Shown here one piece after another: positions 48,829-55,458 of a stretch of 64,000 nucleotides of DNA. A program made the position numbers and the translations under genes. The stretch is taken from assembly GCA_022448085.1 (NCBI GenBank), contig JAKUTH010000003.1, forward strand, positions 62,001 through 126,000, read 5' to 3'. Position 1 is the stretch's first letter; the number at the start of each line of letters is the position of its first letter. The DNA is from Pseudomonadales bacterium (GTDB lineage: Bacteria; Pseudomonadota; Gammaproteobacteria; Pseudomonadales; Azotimanducaceae). Under the pieces are notes generated by a model. The model was not told where the DNA came from, did not search any database, and saw only the letters and a list, made by a program, of their open reading frames with translations.

Positions 48829-51800
48829 ATGGACAGTAACGTCGTCGAGGGTGATCGCCTATTTCTGATCGCTGAGAATCTGGCGCAAGACTTCTCCCGC
48901 CTTCCCACAATAGAAGCCGAAGCGTACGGTGGTATGCGCGGGTTGGTGTCCCGATCTTCGATCGCCCGGCAGCTCAGCGCACTCGACGCCATGGACATCG
49001 ATACGTACATCGAGACGGTTGTCGAGCCGGCCGAGACGCAGGCACGACCGCCGGCACCTTCGGTCATTCGGGCGCTGGGCTCGATCATCGAAGAAGAGAG
49101 CGATGGTCCCTTTTATTGCGCGACCGTCGCTATGGATTTCGACGGGGAGGAGCGTTTAATCGGTTTTATAGCGCAAGACCGCTCGATCCAGAACGGTACG
49201 TGGATGCCGCAGCACCATCTCGCAGCCGTTGCATTTGTTGAGAAATGCTCTAAGCGTGCGATGCCGATTGTTAGTCTCATGGACACGCCAGGTGCGGCGT
49301 CGGACGCGGAAGCTAATCGCGGTAACCAGGCACATAGTATTTCCCGTTTGATTACCGAAATGTCCAATGTGGATGTGCCCAATGTTGGAATTATTTTTGG
49401 GCTTGGTTACTCGGGTGGTGCCATTCCGCTCGCAGCTAGCAACATCATCCTTTCGGTACGCGACGGAGTGTTCAGCACCATCCAACCAAAGAGCCTAGCC
49501 ACCATCGCGCGACGGCTGAATTTATCGTGGCAGGAGTGCGCTAAACACGTCGGCGTTTCCCCGTATGAACTCATGCAGCAGGGCAATATCGATGGAATCA
49601 TCGATTACGCGCCGGGGGACGATGGACACCGCCTCGAAAATCTACGGCTGGCAATCGTCAGTGGGATTTTGGCCGTTGAACAATCGACTAAAACTTTCGT
49701 GGCGGAAAACCCTTACATTCTTGATCACTATCGACGAAGTCTACTGCGCTATCTCGAGCCGTCGGAGCGTCTCCAGAAGGTTCAGGCAAGCGCCTCGCTG
49801 AAACTCTCGAAGAATCCGACCGAATATCTAAATGTGTTTGGAGTTACGTTCCGCTATTTGCGCTATTTGAGAGTGCGACAGCGCATCAAGGCAACCACTC
49901 GGCAACAATATGGGCGTTTGGCACAGAGCGAGCTTCCAGAAGGAGAACTTGGTGCCCGCTCAGACCGTGAAAGGCGCCGGATTTTCTTACGATGGGTGCA
50001 AGATCCCGACAAGCTCATTTACGACGACACCCTGAACCGGGCTTGGAAAGGGTACACCGAGAAAAAACGTGCCGTTCATGAAGAGCGCAGCAGGGTTCAG
50101 CAGTTTTTCCTCGGTGAGCCAAGGAAGAATTACGAGGATGCTCGGAATCATTTGTTGGCGTCGGTTGGAATGTATCTCTACAACCGATGGAAATCTGAGG
50201 CATCGGGGAATTTACGAACGCTGAAGCAGTACATTGAAGATTACGAAGACACTCGACATTTGATCCGAGTTGGCGAGATTTTAGATCCAGTCGCATTAGT
50301 CGGCGCCATACGGCGCGATCGCGAAGTAGGATCAACGTTAAGAGAGCGTTTTACCCACGAAGGGAAAAAACTCCTAGCAATGCAAAGTCTTAGTGCTCGA
50401 ACGGACTCGCAATTGCGGAGCCAATTGTCGACGGAACTCAATCTAGCCATGACGGAGGGACCCATTGACCGGGTCGACGAAGCTTCGCCCCGAAACGATA
50501 ACGACCCCGGTCGACGTGAAACTTCCAACATCGTTGCGAATCGGCGTGTCGTTCAAGAGCGCTTCAATGACCATCTCGCCCCGTCCAGGGTAGAAGGAGC
50601 TCCATTCGCGGATAGCGACCGCACAGTCCTGGACGTTCTTCTAGAAAGTGAGCTTCGAGACGACTTCGTGACCGAAATCGAGAATATGCTCCTTTTTGAC
50701 TCGGTCTACGATCAAGTTCTGGAGAGCCTGGACTCGATCGCTGAGGAAGCTGAACGCAGTAAGGCGTTAGCTCAAGACTCGGTGCGGACACTCATCGAAC
50801 GTACCCTTGAGCGTGCTGAGAGCGAGCTGCGAAGTTCTGGAGTTAACGAAGAAGTAACGACGGATGCTTTACTCCAACAACAGCAATTTTTTGACTGGTA
50901 TCTCAGAATTTTGCATACGCCAAAGTCGAGCGACTTTTTCCGTGCGGTTGAAGAGTGGAAGAAGACGGCCTTCCCACACGTATCGGACACACTCGTTGTC
51001 GTGGTCACTTTTTTCTTTGAACGGTTGTTGGTTTCGCACGTTCAAGCGGAACGAGAAGGCCGACGTTACGACGGACGGATTTCGCCACGTAATATCGGTC
51101 GAAAAAAAGACTTCTGGAATCGGTTGAACATTGCTTATCGTGATCTCCTGATTCAAAACGCGTTGCTGCAGTTTAAAGCCAGACGCGGGACGGGATATAA
51201 CGCCTTTGTCGAGCAGTTCTTCGACGAATTTGAGGAACATCACCGCGATTTGTTGAGTACCGATCCGTGCCAATTTCCAGGATTAAGGATTTCTATTGAA
51301 TCTGCGTTAGAGCAAGATTCTCCTCCGTGTGGCGTGATTGCAGGGGTCGGGACGTTTAGAAACGAAAACGGCGGCCTCCGCGTCGGGACGGTGATCTCCA
51401 ATCCAGACTTCCAGGCCGGCGCATTCGATATGGCAAGTGCGGAAAAGTTCTGCAAATTGTTGGTGACCTGTGCGGAACAAAACCTACCGGTCGTGTGTTT
51501 CATTTCTTCAGGTGGAATGCAGACCAAAGAGGGCGCTGGGTCATTATTTTCGATGGCTGCAATTAATGATCGGATAACGCGGTTTGTACGTGATTTCGAT
51601 CTTCCCGTGATTATATTTGGTCACGGAGACTGTACTGGTGGTGCCCAGGCTAGTTTCGTCACGCACCCGCTTGTGCAGACCTATTACTTTTCCGGCACGA
51701 GTATGCCGTTTGCCGGACAGATTGTCGTACAAAGCAACCTGCCTTCCGATTCCATCCTGTCCAATTACCTGGTCGATGTGCCAGGCGCTATGCAAGGTCT

Positions 51801-53721
51801 CGTTCGGCATCCGTTCTATGAAGATCTAGATGACGAGCTTCGGAGGATCGATCCGGACATACCCGTGCCTCGCGAGAGTGTTGTGGAAGTGGTGAACCGG
51901 GTGATGTCCGGAATCTTGAGTCAGGAACGGCCGATGGTTACGCCCGCCCGAATGCCAGTTGATGCGGGCGACCTTTACCGCCCGGTTAAGCGTGTACTCG
52001 TCCACGCACGGGGATGCACGGCGGCAAAGCTCATAAGGGTGGCCCAAAGGGAATCCATCGAAGTCGTTCTCGTGCAATCGGACCCTGATATGGAGTCGGC
52101 GGCCGTTGACCTGCTTGGAAAAGCTGATTCCGTGATCTGCATTGGTGGTAATACGCCTGACGAAAGTTACCTCAATGCAAAGTCCGTGATTGCCGTGGCC
52201 GAGCATGAGCACGTCGATGCCTTGCATCCAGGGATCGGATTTCTCTCGGAGAGTAGCCAATTTGCCGCACTGGTCCGATCGAGGGGGATCAACTTTATTG
52301 GTCCGCCGGTATCTAGCATGGAGACCATGGGCAATAAATCCAACGCAATTAATACCGCATTACGGCTAAACGTACCCGTAGTACCCGGGAGTCATGGCAT
52401 CGTCACGGATGCCGAAAAAGCCGCCGATCTGGCCGAGCACATCGGCTACCCGTTACTGATAAAAGCGGTTCACGGGGGCGGAGGTATGGGCATACAAGTC
52501 GTCGAAGACGAAAATGCGTTTCACGAGCTATTCCAACGTGTCTCGGTAGAAGCGCGCGCGGCATTCGGAAATGGGGATGTATACCTTGAGAAATTCATTA
52601 CCTCACTGCGCCATATTGAGGCGCAATTGTTGCGGGACCGATACGGCAACACACGTGTTCTCGGCATACGTGATTGCAGCGTCCAGCGCGACAAACAGAA
52701 GGTGATTGAAGAGTCAGGATCAACTCTATTACCCGACGCGCTTCTTGAGTCGGTGGTAGAGCACACGGAAGCGATCGCAGGCGAAGTAGATTATGTAGGT
52801 GCGGGAACCGTCGAGTTTATCTATGACCTCGACGCAGATGAAGTTTACTTTATGGAAATGAACACGCGTTTGCAGGTCGAACATCCCGTCACCGAGTACG
52901 TGTCGGGTGTAGACATTGTTGCTGAGCAATTTCGTATCGCGGGTGGCGGGGATATTGCCAAACTCAAAGTTGGTGAGGAGGGTTATGCGATTGAAGCGCG
53001 AGTGAATGCAGAAAGAATCGTACGCCTTCAAGACGGGACACTTGCGTTCCGTCCGAGCGCGGGGACGATTGATGTCTGCCGTATGCCGGAAGAGAAAGAC
53101 GTTGACGTAATTACGATGGCGGGAGAAGGTAAATTCGTCTCTCCATACTATGACAGTATGCTCGCGCAAATCGTTGTTCACGCGAAGGATCGGGACACTG
53201 CGGCGAGCAAATTAGAGGCCTACCTTGGTCGGGTCGAAGTAGCGGGAATATGTACAAACATTCCGCTTGTTCGAGCAATTCTAAAGGATCCGCAGTTTTT
53301 GAAAGGCGAATACGATACAAACTATTTGCCAGCCTTACTTGACCGCGTTGATGCCGATGCGCTTATTGCCGAAATTGATGCTGCTTCGGGAGACGCCGGA
53401 ATCGCTATTGGTGCGGAATCGATTCGGATCGACGGAAGTGATGAATTGAAAGTGCTATCGCCTACTACGGGAATTTTCTATTCGACGCCGTCTCCGGCTG
53501 AGCCCGAGTATGTTGTGGAAGGTGATCGAATCGGTCTGACGGACACGCTCTGTCAACTAGAAGCCTTCAAGATTTTCACGCCGATGTGTATCGCTGACTT
53601 CAACACGGGCGATGCCCACTTGTACGAACCGGGTTGCGAGTACGAGCTCGTTCGTACGAACGTGGCATCGGGTCAACAAGTGAATGTTGGCGATTTGCTC
53701 TTTGTGATCCGACCCACTTAA
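48829..53721 (+). CDS. Single-chain fused acyl-CoA carboxylase (CT-alpha / CT-beta / BC / BCCP)
   Basis: This 1630-residue protein carries all parts of a biotin-dependent acyl-CoA carboxylase. Residues about 80-330 are a crotonase-fold CT half (LGYSGGAIPLAAS near 191). About 330-790 is a long, charged helical region. About 790-1045 is the second CT half (ISSGGMQTKEGAGS near 892, GHGDCTGGAQAS near 931). Biotin carboxylase starts near 1054, with ATP-grasp loop HGGGGMGI near 1214 and EMNTRLQVEHPVTE near 1343. The biotinyl domain follows, with modified Lys near 1580 in LEAFKIFTP (EAFK instead of EAMK). Substrate (acetyl-, propionyl- or other acyl-CoA) is not decided. It is divergent from moaB-thiolase-fabY. 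Confidence 0.88.
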   Translation: MDSNVVEGDRLFLIAENLAQDFSRLPTIEAEAYGGMRGLVSRSSIARQLSALDAMDIDTYIETVVEPAETQARPPAPSVIRALGSIIEEESDGPFYCATVAMDFDGEERLIGFIAQDRSIQNGTWMPQHHLAAVAFVEKCSKRAMPIVSLMDTPGAASDAEANRGNQAHSISRLITEMSNVDVPNVGIIFGLGYSGGAIPLAASNIILSVRDGVFSTIQPKSLATIARRLNLSWQECAKHVGVSPYELMQQGNIDGIIDYAPGDDGHRLENLRLAIVSGILAVEQSTKTFVAENPYILDHYRRSLLRYLEPSERLQKVQASASLKLSKNPTEYLNVFGVTFRYLRYLRVRQRIKATTRQQYGRLAQSELPEGELGARSDRERRRIFLRWVQDPDKLIYDDTLNRAWKGYTEKKRAVHEERSRVQQFFLGEPRKNYEDARNHLLASVGMYLYNRWKSEASGNLRTLKQYIEDYEDTRHLIRVGEILDPVALVGAIRRDREVGSTLRERFTHEGKKLLAMQSLSARTDSQLRSQLSTELNLAMTEGPIDRVDEASPRNDNDPGRRETSNIVANRRVVQERFNDHLAPSRVEGAPFADSDRTVLDVLLESELRDDFVTEIENMLLFDSVYDQVLESLDSIAEEAERSKALAQDSVRTLIERTLERAESELRSSGVNEEVTTDALLQQQQFFDWYLRILHTPKSSDFFRAVEEWKKTAFPHVSDTLVVVVTFFFERLLVSHVQAEREGRRYDGRISPRNIGRKKDFWNRLNIAYRDLLIQNALLQFKARRGTGYNAFVEQFFDEFEEHHRDLLSTDPCQFPGLRISIESALEQDSPPCGVIAGVGTFRNENGGLRVGTVISNPDFQAGAFDMASAEKFCKLLVTCAEQNLPVVCFISSGGMQTKEGAGSLFSMAAINDRITRFVRDFDLPVIIFGHGDCTGGAQASFVTHPLVQTYYFSGTSMPFAGQIVVQSNLPSDSILSNYLVDVPGAMQGLVRHPFYEDLDDELRRIDPDIPVPRESVVEVVNRVMSGILSQERPMVTPARMPVDAGDLYRPVKRVLVHARGCTAAKLIRVAQRESIEVVLVQSDPDMESAAVDLLGKADSVICIGGNTPDESYLNAKSVIAVAEHEHVDALHPGIGFLSESSQFAALVRSRGINFIGPPVSSMETMGNKSNAINTALRLNVPVVPGSHGIVTDAEKAADLAEHIGYPLLIKAVHGGGGMGIQVVEDENAFHELFQRVSVEARAAFGNGDVYLEKFITSLRHIEAQLLRDRYGNTRVLGIRDCSVQRDKQKVIEESGSTLLPDALLESVVEHTEAIAGEVDYVGAGTVEFIYDLDADEVYFMEMNTRLQVEHPVTEYVSGVDIVAEQFRIAGGGDIAKLKVGEEGYAIEARVNAERIVRLQDGTLAFRPSAGTIDVCRMPEEKDVDVITMAGEGKFVSPYYDSMLAQIVVHAKDRDTAASKLEAYLGRVEVAGICTNIPLVRAILKDPQFLKGEYDTNYLPALLDRVDADALIAEIDAASGDAGIAIGAESIRIDGSDELKVLSPTTGIFYSTPSPAEPEYVVEGDRIGLTDTLCQLEAFKIFTPMCIADFNTGDAHLYEPGCEYELVRTNVASGQQVNVGDLLFVIRPT

Positions 53722-53755: not shown

Positions 53756-54544
53756 TTACGTAAATAAGTCCCAAGCGCCTTTCACAATCGCCAAGGTACC
53801 CACGATGAGAATGATCCTGCCCGTGACGGTTCGAAAAGCGGCTTCGTTAACTCGGTCTAAAAAGCGTGTTCCTATCCAGGTACCCGCCACCGCGAGCGAA
53901 ACGGAGCCGATGATGAAGCCAGGAGTTAGTAGTGGATCGAGCGCGTCCACCGCGATGCTTGCCATGCCACCGTAATAAACAAGTTTGATGAGGTGGCCTA
54001 GCGTTTGTGTAAACGCTTTGGTGGCGACAACTTGATATCGGTTGAGAGAACTTTTTAGATAAAAAACATCCAGCAAAGGTCCGGATGCGCCGGCGAGCAA
54101 CTGTGCCAGGGTCACCGAAACTCCGCATGCGAAAGCATGTGGTGGTTTTGCGATGTCTAAGCCGCTGAGGCGCGGTACTAATCGTGCGATCCAAGGAAAG
54201 GTCCCAACCAATAGGAGGACTAACGCGGGATGTGGAATGATCGTGGTGAAAACAAATCCTGCGAAGACGATCGTTGTGCCCAGGAGGTATGGGGGAATTA
54301 CGGTCCAAACCATGTTGCTGCGCAAAAACCAAAATCGAGAGCCGTTCGCAATACTTTGGACCGTGCCATGCAAAATCATTGCACTTGTGACCGGTAGTAC
54401 CGTCACGAGGACAGCCATAAGAATCATGCCGCCAGCCATTCCGACAACGCCGGACAGGATCGAAGTCAACAATACACAGAGCAAAACCAGAATCGCCACG
54501 GAACTACTCAGATCAGCATGCCTTGGACGACTTTGATCCTTCAC
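53756..54544 (-). CDS. TSUP family permease (TauE/SafE-like)
   Basis: The 262-residue membrane protein has about eight helices and the paired TSUP repeats: SILSGVVGMAGGMILM near residue 27 and FACGVSVTLAQLLAGASGPLLDVF near 135. TSUP members export sulfite, sulfonates or organic anions. GTG 54544 gives a normal length; the frame stays open upstream to 54769, but that part overlaps the divergent regulator gene and is not membrane-like. It probably is controlled by the LysR regulator next to it. Confidence 0.82.
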   Translation of the reverse strand: MKDQSRPRHADLSSSVAILVLLCVLLTSILSGVVGMAGGMILMAVLVTVLPVTSAMILHGTVQSIANGSRFWFLRSNMVWTVIPPYLLGTTIVFAGFVFTTIIPHPALVLLLVGTFPWIARLVPRLSGLDIAKPPHAFACGVSVTLAQLLAGASGPLLDVFYLKSSLNRYQVVATKAFTQTLGHLIKLVYYGGMASIAVDALDPLLTPGFIIGSVSLAVAGTWIGTRFLDRVNEAAFRTVTGRIILIVGTLAIVKGAWDLFT

Positions 54545-54603
54545 CTGAGCATGAGAAAAGCGAATAATTGGAATATAAGAAAGTAGTTTGGGGAATAAAT
54601 ATC

Positions 54604-55458
54604 GTGATCGAAAACTTAGAGACACTGGTTCAACTGTCTGCAACTGGAACCATGATGGAGACGGCGACTCGAATGAAGGTATCGCAAAGCGCGGTGAGTA
54701 AGCGCATTGCCTCGCTCGAGAGCTACTACGACCGTAAGCTGATTGAAAGACACGGCCGTCGTGTCGCATTAACCCACCATGGTCGTCAGTTAGTTGACAA
54801 GGTCACTCCGCTGCTACAGGAAGTTCGCGGTGTGTTCTTGGAAGATAACGCGCTTCGTAAGGGACGAATTATTGTTGGTGTTTCGGAAGCTATTTTATCG
54901 AGCTGGGGGCCGCGGTTGTTTGCAGTCGTCCAGGCCGATTTACCGGAGGTTGAATTTGAATTTCATGCCCAACGATCGCCAGCTGTTTTGGATCGAATCC
55001 GAGCTGGAGAATATATGGTTGGGGTGTGCACGGGCGTGGCTGATGCCGAGGCCGACCTACAGTCCGAAGTCATTCATCTTGAACCGATGGTCGTCATTCC
55101 GTCGCGTCTGGTACGAAGCGGGTACAAAATTTTTGAGCCATTGGACGTGATTACAATCGAATCACGGTCTGGCGCCTGGGCTTCTATCGAGGACGATATG
55201 CGGCGCTTGAAACTTCGCAGGAACACGTCGATGGAATCGTTCTTTGCGGTTGGGCAGATGGCTATACAAGGCTTTGGGCACGGATTGGTTCCGCGCGGTG
55301 TCGCGGTCACGCTCGGGATAGCCGAGGAACTATTGATTGATCTGGGGAAAGAAGGGATGAACCGACCGGTCCGATTCGTTGCGCGCAAGTCAATGTTTGC
55401 GCGACCATTGATCCAGAATTTTCACAAAGCGCTCGTGACGCATGCTGCGTCCATATAG
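54604..55458 (+). CDS. LysR-type transcriptional regulator
   Basis: The 284-residue protein has an N-terminal winged helix-turn-helix (ENLETLVQLSATGTMMETATRMKVSQSAVSKRIASLE read in parts, residues 3-38) and a C-terminal periplasmic-binding-like effector domain (RKGRIIVGVSEAILSSWG onward). GTG 54604 gives the standard distance to the HTH. It is divergent from the TSUP permease with only 59 bp between starts, the classic arrangement for a LysR regulator and its target. Effector unknown, perhaps the exported anion. Confidence 0.9.
   Translation: MIENLETLVQLSATGTMMETATRMKVSQSAVSKRIASLESYYDRKLIERHGRRVALTHHGRQLVDKVTPLLQEVRGVFLEDNALRKGRIIVGVSEAILSSWGPRLFAVVQADLPEVEFEFHAQRSPAVLDRIRAGEYMVGVCTGVADAEADLQSEVIHLEPMVVIPSRLVRSGYKIFEPLDVITIESRSGAWASIEDDMRRLKLRRNTSMESFFAVGQMAIQGFGHGLVPRGVAVTLGIAEELLIDLGKEGMNRPVRFVARKSMFARPLIQNFHKALVTHAASI

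Follow-up and report, generated by a model that had tools for sequence, protein, structure and literature searches.

A single open frame with four carboxylase parts

The window analysed here is a 64,000-nucleotide stretch of contig JAKUTH010000003.1 from a marine bacterium of the Pseudomonadales (family Azotimanducaceae). At 48829-53721 its forward strand carries a single ATG-started open reading frame of 1630 amino acids with no internal stop. The features of the locus are listed below.

48829..53721, + strand: predicted AccADCB/AccS-type single-chain acetyl-CoA carboxylase (ORF; PDB sequence match)
49195..49617, + strand: carboxyltransferase alpha (CT-alpha, AccA-like) core, residues 123-263 (Pfam PF03255, ACCA, E 1.3e-24; E. 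coli AccA alignment)
49729..50244, + strand: linker, first part, residues 301-472, common to 9kkm_A (PDB sequence search)
50245..50616, + strand: extra segment of the long linker, residues 473-596; the short form has 12-25 residues here (alignment)
50617..51228, + strand: linker, second part, residues 597-800, common to 9kkm_A (PDB sequence search)
51226..51804, + strand: CT-beta (AccD-like) core, residues 800-992 (NCBIfam accD, TIGR00515; alignment)
51985..53328, + strand: biotin carboxylase (BC) domain, residues 1053-1500 (Pfam; E. coli AccC positions)
53404..53580, + strand: biotin carboxyl carrier protein (BCCP) domain match, residues 1526-1584 (NCBIfam TIGR00531)
53569..53571, + strand: presumed biotinylated lysine K1581 within LEAFKIF (motif alignment)
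53756-54769, - strand: TauE-family gene, downstream
54568..55458, + strand: LysR-type regulator gene, not AccR-like, a recurrent neighbour in the family; downstream, same strand as the fused gene

The original prediction had read one open frame in the order CT-alpha, helical linker, CT-beta, BC, BCCP, and the frame and the positions of the Pfam and NCBIfam matches showed that this A-D-C-B order was correct. The BC domain was divided by Pfam into Biotin_carb_N (1053-1164), CPSase_L_D2 (1170-1376) and Biotin_carb_C (1389-1500). Carboxyl_trans matched in two stretches, the best at 108-200, and the TIGR00515 and TIGR00531 matches were both below the NCBIfam cut-offs.

Active-site residues and biotin motif

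All 15 E. coli AccC positions that were checked, which we take to be catalytic, ATP or bicarbonate sites, were unchanged in every one of the 63 family rows of the alignment, the window protein included. Aligned with E. coli, its CT-alpha retained SGGA, and its CT-beta retained SGG and also GG followed by ASF. The four parts thus resembled AccA, AccD, AccC and AccB of E. coli, which are four separate chains; the Cys-rich N-terminal region of E. coli AccD had no counterpart in the window protein, and the model scores were 71 of 319 bits for accA and 45 of 317 bits for accD. E. coli E296 aligns with Glu in all 63 rows, and 9kkm_A differs in carrying Ala there, perhaps an engineered change. The dN/dS of the fused gene was 0.10 against relative G005 and 0.07 against G006.

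The biotin site had been noted as EAFK rather than EAMK, and the alignment agreed (LEAFKIF, lysine at residue 1581). The motif could be read in 70 proteins (62 plus 8 more; one further row with an incomplete sequence was excluded), and 14 of them have EAFK; 13 of these 14 came from the window's family, the other being record OY282447. Replacement of EAMK by EAFK could affect biotinylation.

Two forms of the linker

No Pfam family exceeded its cut-off within residues 301-800, which agreed with the earlier view that the linker has no family name. Read as helical, it lay between the CT halves as described; its length was ~500 residues (about 301-800), not ~450. As a PDB query, residues 301-800 gave 9kkm_A as the sole match (E 4.6e-86, threshold E 0.1); 9kkm is a solved relative of all of it except residues 473-596.

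At the site of residues 473-596, 54 of 71 aligned proteins had 106-141 residues and 17 had 12-25. The short form was found in the protein of genome G1067, which is closest to 9kkm, and in 9kkm itself by its alignment; the window protein had 124 residues where the G1067 protein had 13. This extra segment changed fastest, with 86% identity to G005 against 95-99% in the other six regions, and its identity to four long-form proteins from other families was 15-23%. An AlphaFold2 model of residues 1-1050 from six sequences had a mean pLDDT of 36, too low to serve for the linker fold. We know of no activity reported for any long-linker member. The long-linker form, EAFK and an orphan AccB (below) are the less studied features of this enzyme.

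Relationship to AccS and AccADCB

9kkm_A was the best PDB sequence match to the whole protein, covering window residues 8-472 and 597-1629 at 1674 bits. It is a 1517-aa chain (identical sequence in 9w4a) titled "Acetyl-CoA carboxylase multifunctional enzyme AccADCB". The window protein shared with it the single-chain order, both conserved linker parts and near full-length homology, with 473-596 as the extra stretch; EAFK stands in the window protein and EAMK in 9kkm_A. No paper on 9kkm/9w4a was found by a limited literature search, where the name AccADCB was met in one paper, as a gene-list entry.

A 1517-aa protein of G1067 matched 9kkm_A over 1-1516 with 3043 bits. From this match, together with the pOXA436-type divergent LysR and the chromosomal setting of OXA-48, we infer that the source of 9kkm is Shewanella or a close relative. 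S. oneidensis AccS (SO_0840) likewise has 1517 aa and has replaced AccABCD in that organism (excerpts of PMC4793157). Excerpts of PMC11602165 describe activation of accS by the LysR regulator AccR and detection of AccS as a biotinylated band; growth of an S. oneidensis accR mutant short of AccS was restored by E. coli accA, accD and accBC together.

By sequence homology, then, the window protein is a member of the AccS/AccADCB family, studied in S. oneidensis. The linker is family-specific, 9kkm_A being its only PDB match, and the gene takes the place of genomic AccA and AccD, as accS does. A divergent AccR gene, a trait of Shewanella, was absent and moaB lay upstream instead; we take AccR as a marker of Shewanella, not of the enzyme family. 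Separate AccA and AccD chains, which the heteromeric AccABCD enzyme has, were not found in the genome. The order of eukaryotic acetyl-CoA carboxylase (ACC) is BC-BCCP-central-CT, and the window protein did not show it. That enzyme is also a single chain, and the accessible text of PMC11602165 states that the order of AccS differs from the eukaryotic one.

The protein is thus real and well conserved, and belongs to a known, solved and studied family. The novelty implied by the original prediction did not hold, as 9kkm/9w4a and S. oneidensis AccS share the order and both conserved linker halves; the common, characterised family of identical order that it had said would end the claim exists in these proteins (excerpts of PMC4793157 and PMC11602165). 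What remains of interest is how widespread the family is, together with its long-linker form and the orphan AccB. Acetyl-CoA carboxylase, which begins fatty-acid synthesis, is usually made of four proteins in bacteria. The family represents a bacterial route to a single-chain acetyl-CoA carboxylase in an order unlike the eukaryotic one.

Other single-chain carboxylases differ from it. Saccharopolyspora SACE_4237 is likewise a single-chain ACC, a different fused enzyme from an actinobacterium (excerpts of PMC6491548). Three fused carboxylases of the window's own genome (1136-1161 aa) also hold BC, biotinyl and CT regions in one chain; their order is BC, BCCP, CT, with one Carboxyl_trans domain matching nearly the full model.

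Distribution and phylogeny

Within the window's genus and family, 37 genomes were searched, the window's own among them, and 33 gave an AccADCB-specific match, as 29 single open frames of 1617-1685 aa and four partial frames; the other four (G001, G008, G026 and G034) gave BC-type matches only. The original prediction had allowed that an artefact might have joined genes. That separate acc genes were fused by assembly found nothing in its favour and has a vanishingly small likelihood: the same single frame in 29 of these 37 genomes, in dozens of genomes overall and in a deposited PDB chain rules it out.

Across the order, 390 genomes were searched with the linker and 47 matched, the window's own among them; these belong to 28 of the 143 genera sampled. 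The linker matched 6 of 369 genomes in a draw from the class and 6 of 398 in a draw from the phylum (own included in each), the other five being in the same class in both draws. A contig scan gave 23 loci, of which five (L015-L019) were AccADCB; the other 18 were BC-domain matches in frames no longer than 609 aa, with CT regions as well in L020, L022 and L035. In a plasmid search no place covered 80% of the query. Plasmid pOXA436 of Enterobacter asburiae (L057, NZ_KY863418.1 135084-153783) carried a broken acc gene of the AccADCB family; a LysR gene accompanied it, and an OXA-48-type carbapenemase gene lay nearby. This setting is much like that of Shewanella chromosomes, where blaOXA-48-like genes lie by lysR and an acc gene for a multifunctional enzyme (excerpts of PMC3480492). 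The pOXA436 LysR shares 79% identity with the regulator that is divergent from the fused gene in G1067.

In a BC tree of 28 sequences (midpoint root), the 12 from fused proteins grouped in a separate clade (support 1.0) that excluded eight AccC proteins, and on this ground the idea that the BC domain arose by recent local fusion of an AccC was rejected. In a whole-protein tree, rooted by choice on G042/G084, Shewanella-type proteins branched within those of the window's order, a placement suggestive of transfer. AccB labels (B+/B-) on that tree are defaults, not counts, for genomes outside the AccB search (f234, f189, f206, f231, f53 and record OY282447).

In G423 (L263:654-3149) the fused gene followed an aldehyde dehydrogenase gene, a methylamine dehydrogenase light-chain gene and a 147-aa frame that had no Pfam match.

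Probable replacement of the four-subunit enzyme

No stand-alone AccA or AccD was found in the window's own genome, where AccB was present; the best accA and accD matches were the fused gene itself, and the next (E 2.2e-6 and 1.7e-4) lay within other carboxylase genes. This search for separate subunits had been proposed with the original prediction, and its outcome favoured the malonyl-CoA role suggested there. The genome is 94.6% complete: accA or accD could possibly have been missed, and loss of both from the assembly is less likely.

All 47 fused-gene genomes of the order were checked, and 44 lacked both AccA and AccD at E 1e-40 (six of them, G093, G097, G125, G152, G177 and G181, are <90% complete). 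By the same cut-off both were present in all 20 genomes checked of the 343 without a linker match. AccA and AccD were both kept besides the fused gene in three of the 47 (G042, G084 and G295), which shows that the fused enzyme can coexist with the canonical one. In G042 and G084 AccB was over the cut-off, in G042 with accC beside accB, and a divergent fused homologue with biotin motif EVMK was preceded, on its own strand, by genes for a FabA-like protein, a ketoacyl synthase and an enoyl reductase (L104:1695-9610 and L105:4517-12209), a setting that points to fatty-acid synthesis.

It is therefore highly likely that the product of the window gene is an AccS/AccADCB-family acetyl-CoA carboxylase in one chain, which replaces the four-subunit AccABCD in this lineage, and the window protein is very probably the acetyl-CoA carboxylase of its organism. 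In such an enzyme the BC domain would carboxylate the biotin of the C-terminal BCCP domain, drawing on ATP and bicarbonate, and the helical linker would hold both CT halves within one chain; in the lineage, the fused enzyme would have taken over from AccABCD. An enzyme that carboxylates another acyl-CoA (e.g. propionyl-CoA) in a catabolic or specialised pathway, acetyl-CoA being handled by something else, would be compatible with the five other biotin carboxylase genes of the genome (C55, C72, C58, C2 and C115) and with SACE_4237, which acts on both acetyl- and propionyl-CoA (excerpts of PMC6491548). We consider this very improbable, as no AccA/AccD pair was found elsewhere in the genome, 64 of the 67 genomes checked have either the fused gene or AccA/AccD and not both, and the Shewanella homologue provides ACC function (excerpts of PMC11602165). 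With 28 of 143 genera carrying the fused gene, almost invariably as a substitute for AccA and AccD, the order offers a well-sampled case of enzyme replacement, and the leftover accB is a testable puzzle.

An orphan accB gene

L100:4410-4817 (G000:C46): orphan AccB, 135 aa, with ESMKM motif and E. coli-like N-terminus, between aroQ and prmA, no accC

In E. coli accB and accC adjoin, with prmA and dusB further along. AccB was over the cut-off in 33 of 46 genomes of the window's family searched (12/18 and 21/28), and 13 had none. Six of the 33 had accC beside accB (G007, G020, G014, G008, G026 and G034). It was not found there in the other 27 (flanks of 0.7 to 5 kb), which include G001 (81% complete, no AccADCB-specific match); in 24 of them prmA was the next among the genes searched for, at most 331 bases from accB. 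G285, of another family, kept accB and accC and had no AccA/AccD match. Such differing retention of accB, accC, AccA and AccD indicated that the old enzyme has been lost to different degrees in different genomes.

Against five close relatives, the dN/dS of the orphan accB was 0.09-0.26, within the range of its neighbours aroQ, prmA, dusB and purH (0-0.28); G003 was too distant for this (dS saturated). The gene is thus under purifying selection in the closest relatives, and its being a decaying relic was not supported. A carrier role for a carboxylase lacking BCCP was also rejected, each of the other biotin carboxylases having a biotinyl domain or neighbour: biotinyl domains were present in the fused proteins of C58, C2 and C115, and C55 gave a weak BCCP match (E 1.5e-9). 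The C72 cluster (L101:1447-5629) comprises BC, a 73-aa biotinyl protein, an enoyl-CoA hydratase and CT, so the idea that it lacks BCCP was dropped, the biotinyl gene lying between those for BC and hydratase; its CT had a match of at least 59% identity in 45 of 49 genomes searched. No partner for the orphan AccB was found among these five.

S. oneidensis has an additional AccB homologue beside AccS, SO_0511 (152 aa), left unexplained in the accessible text of PMC4793157. In excerpts of PMC10470608, SO0840 and LiuD were the only two biotinylated proteins of the control, and two biotinylated bands likewise appear in those of PMC11602165. In these blots, so far as the excerpts go, the additional AccB was not seen biotinylated; a small biotinylated protein may have been missed by them.

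The single-chain enzyme might work with a free orphan AccB, accA, accD and often accC having been lost while accB was kept by aroQ/prmA and is still selected; this is tentative, and we regard it as unlikely. The role of such an AccB could, with similarly modest expectation, be that of a second mobile biotin carrier or of a regulator, acting on the fused enzyme or by way of biotin ligase, or could combine the two. These readings are held low because only AccS and LiuD are reported as biotinylated in S. oneidensis. A need for AccB as an extra carrier because the enzyme's own BCCP, with EAFK, is weak seems quite improbable. Purifying selection on accB, mostly with no accC beside it, and the minority status of EAFK would agree with such a need; yet EAFK and AccB showed no association (AccB in 10 of 13 EAFK and 16 of 23 EAMK family genomes), the 13 family genomes with no AccB over the cut-off also argue against it, and S. 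oneidensis has an AccB while its blots showed AccS and LiuD (excerpts of PMC11602165 and PMC10470608). In a limited literature search we did not meet accB without accC, its breadth or its selection in print.

Neighbouring genes and regulators

Upstream of the fused gene, on the opposite strand, were moaB, a thiolase gene and a gene for a 617-aa ketoacyl synthase (called FabY in the original prediction). Among 30 loci of the family, moaB was upstream in 21 and LysR downstream in 20, and neither was present in 34 loci of other families (flanks of ~3 kb, some cut by contig ends). The window locus differs from that of S. oneidensis accS: its LysR is another one and lies on the opposite flank, and upstream there is moaB instead of a divergent LysR. 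The window LysR was 23% identical to that of pOXA436. In many of the organisms treated in PMC11602165 another LysR-type gene, oriented the same way, lies near accS (excerpts). The listed TauE-family (53756-54769) and LysR (54568-55458) frames overlap by ~200 bases, and one start codon may be misplaced.
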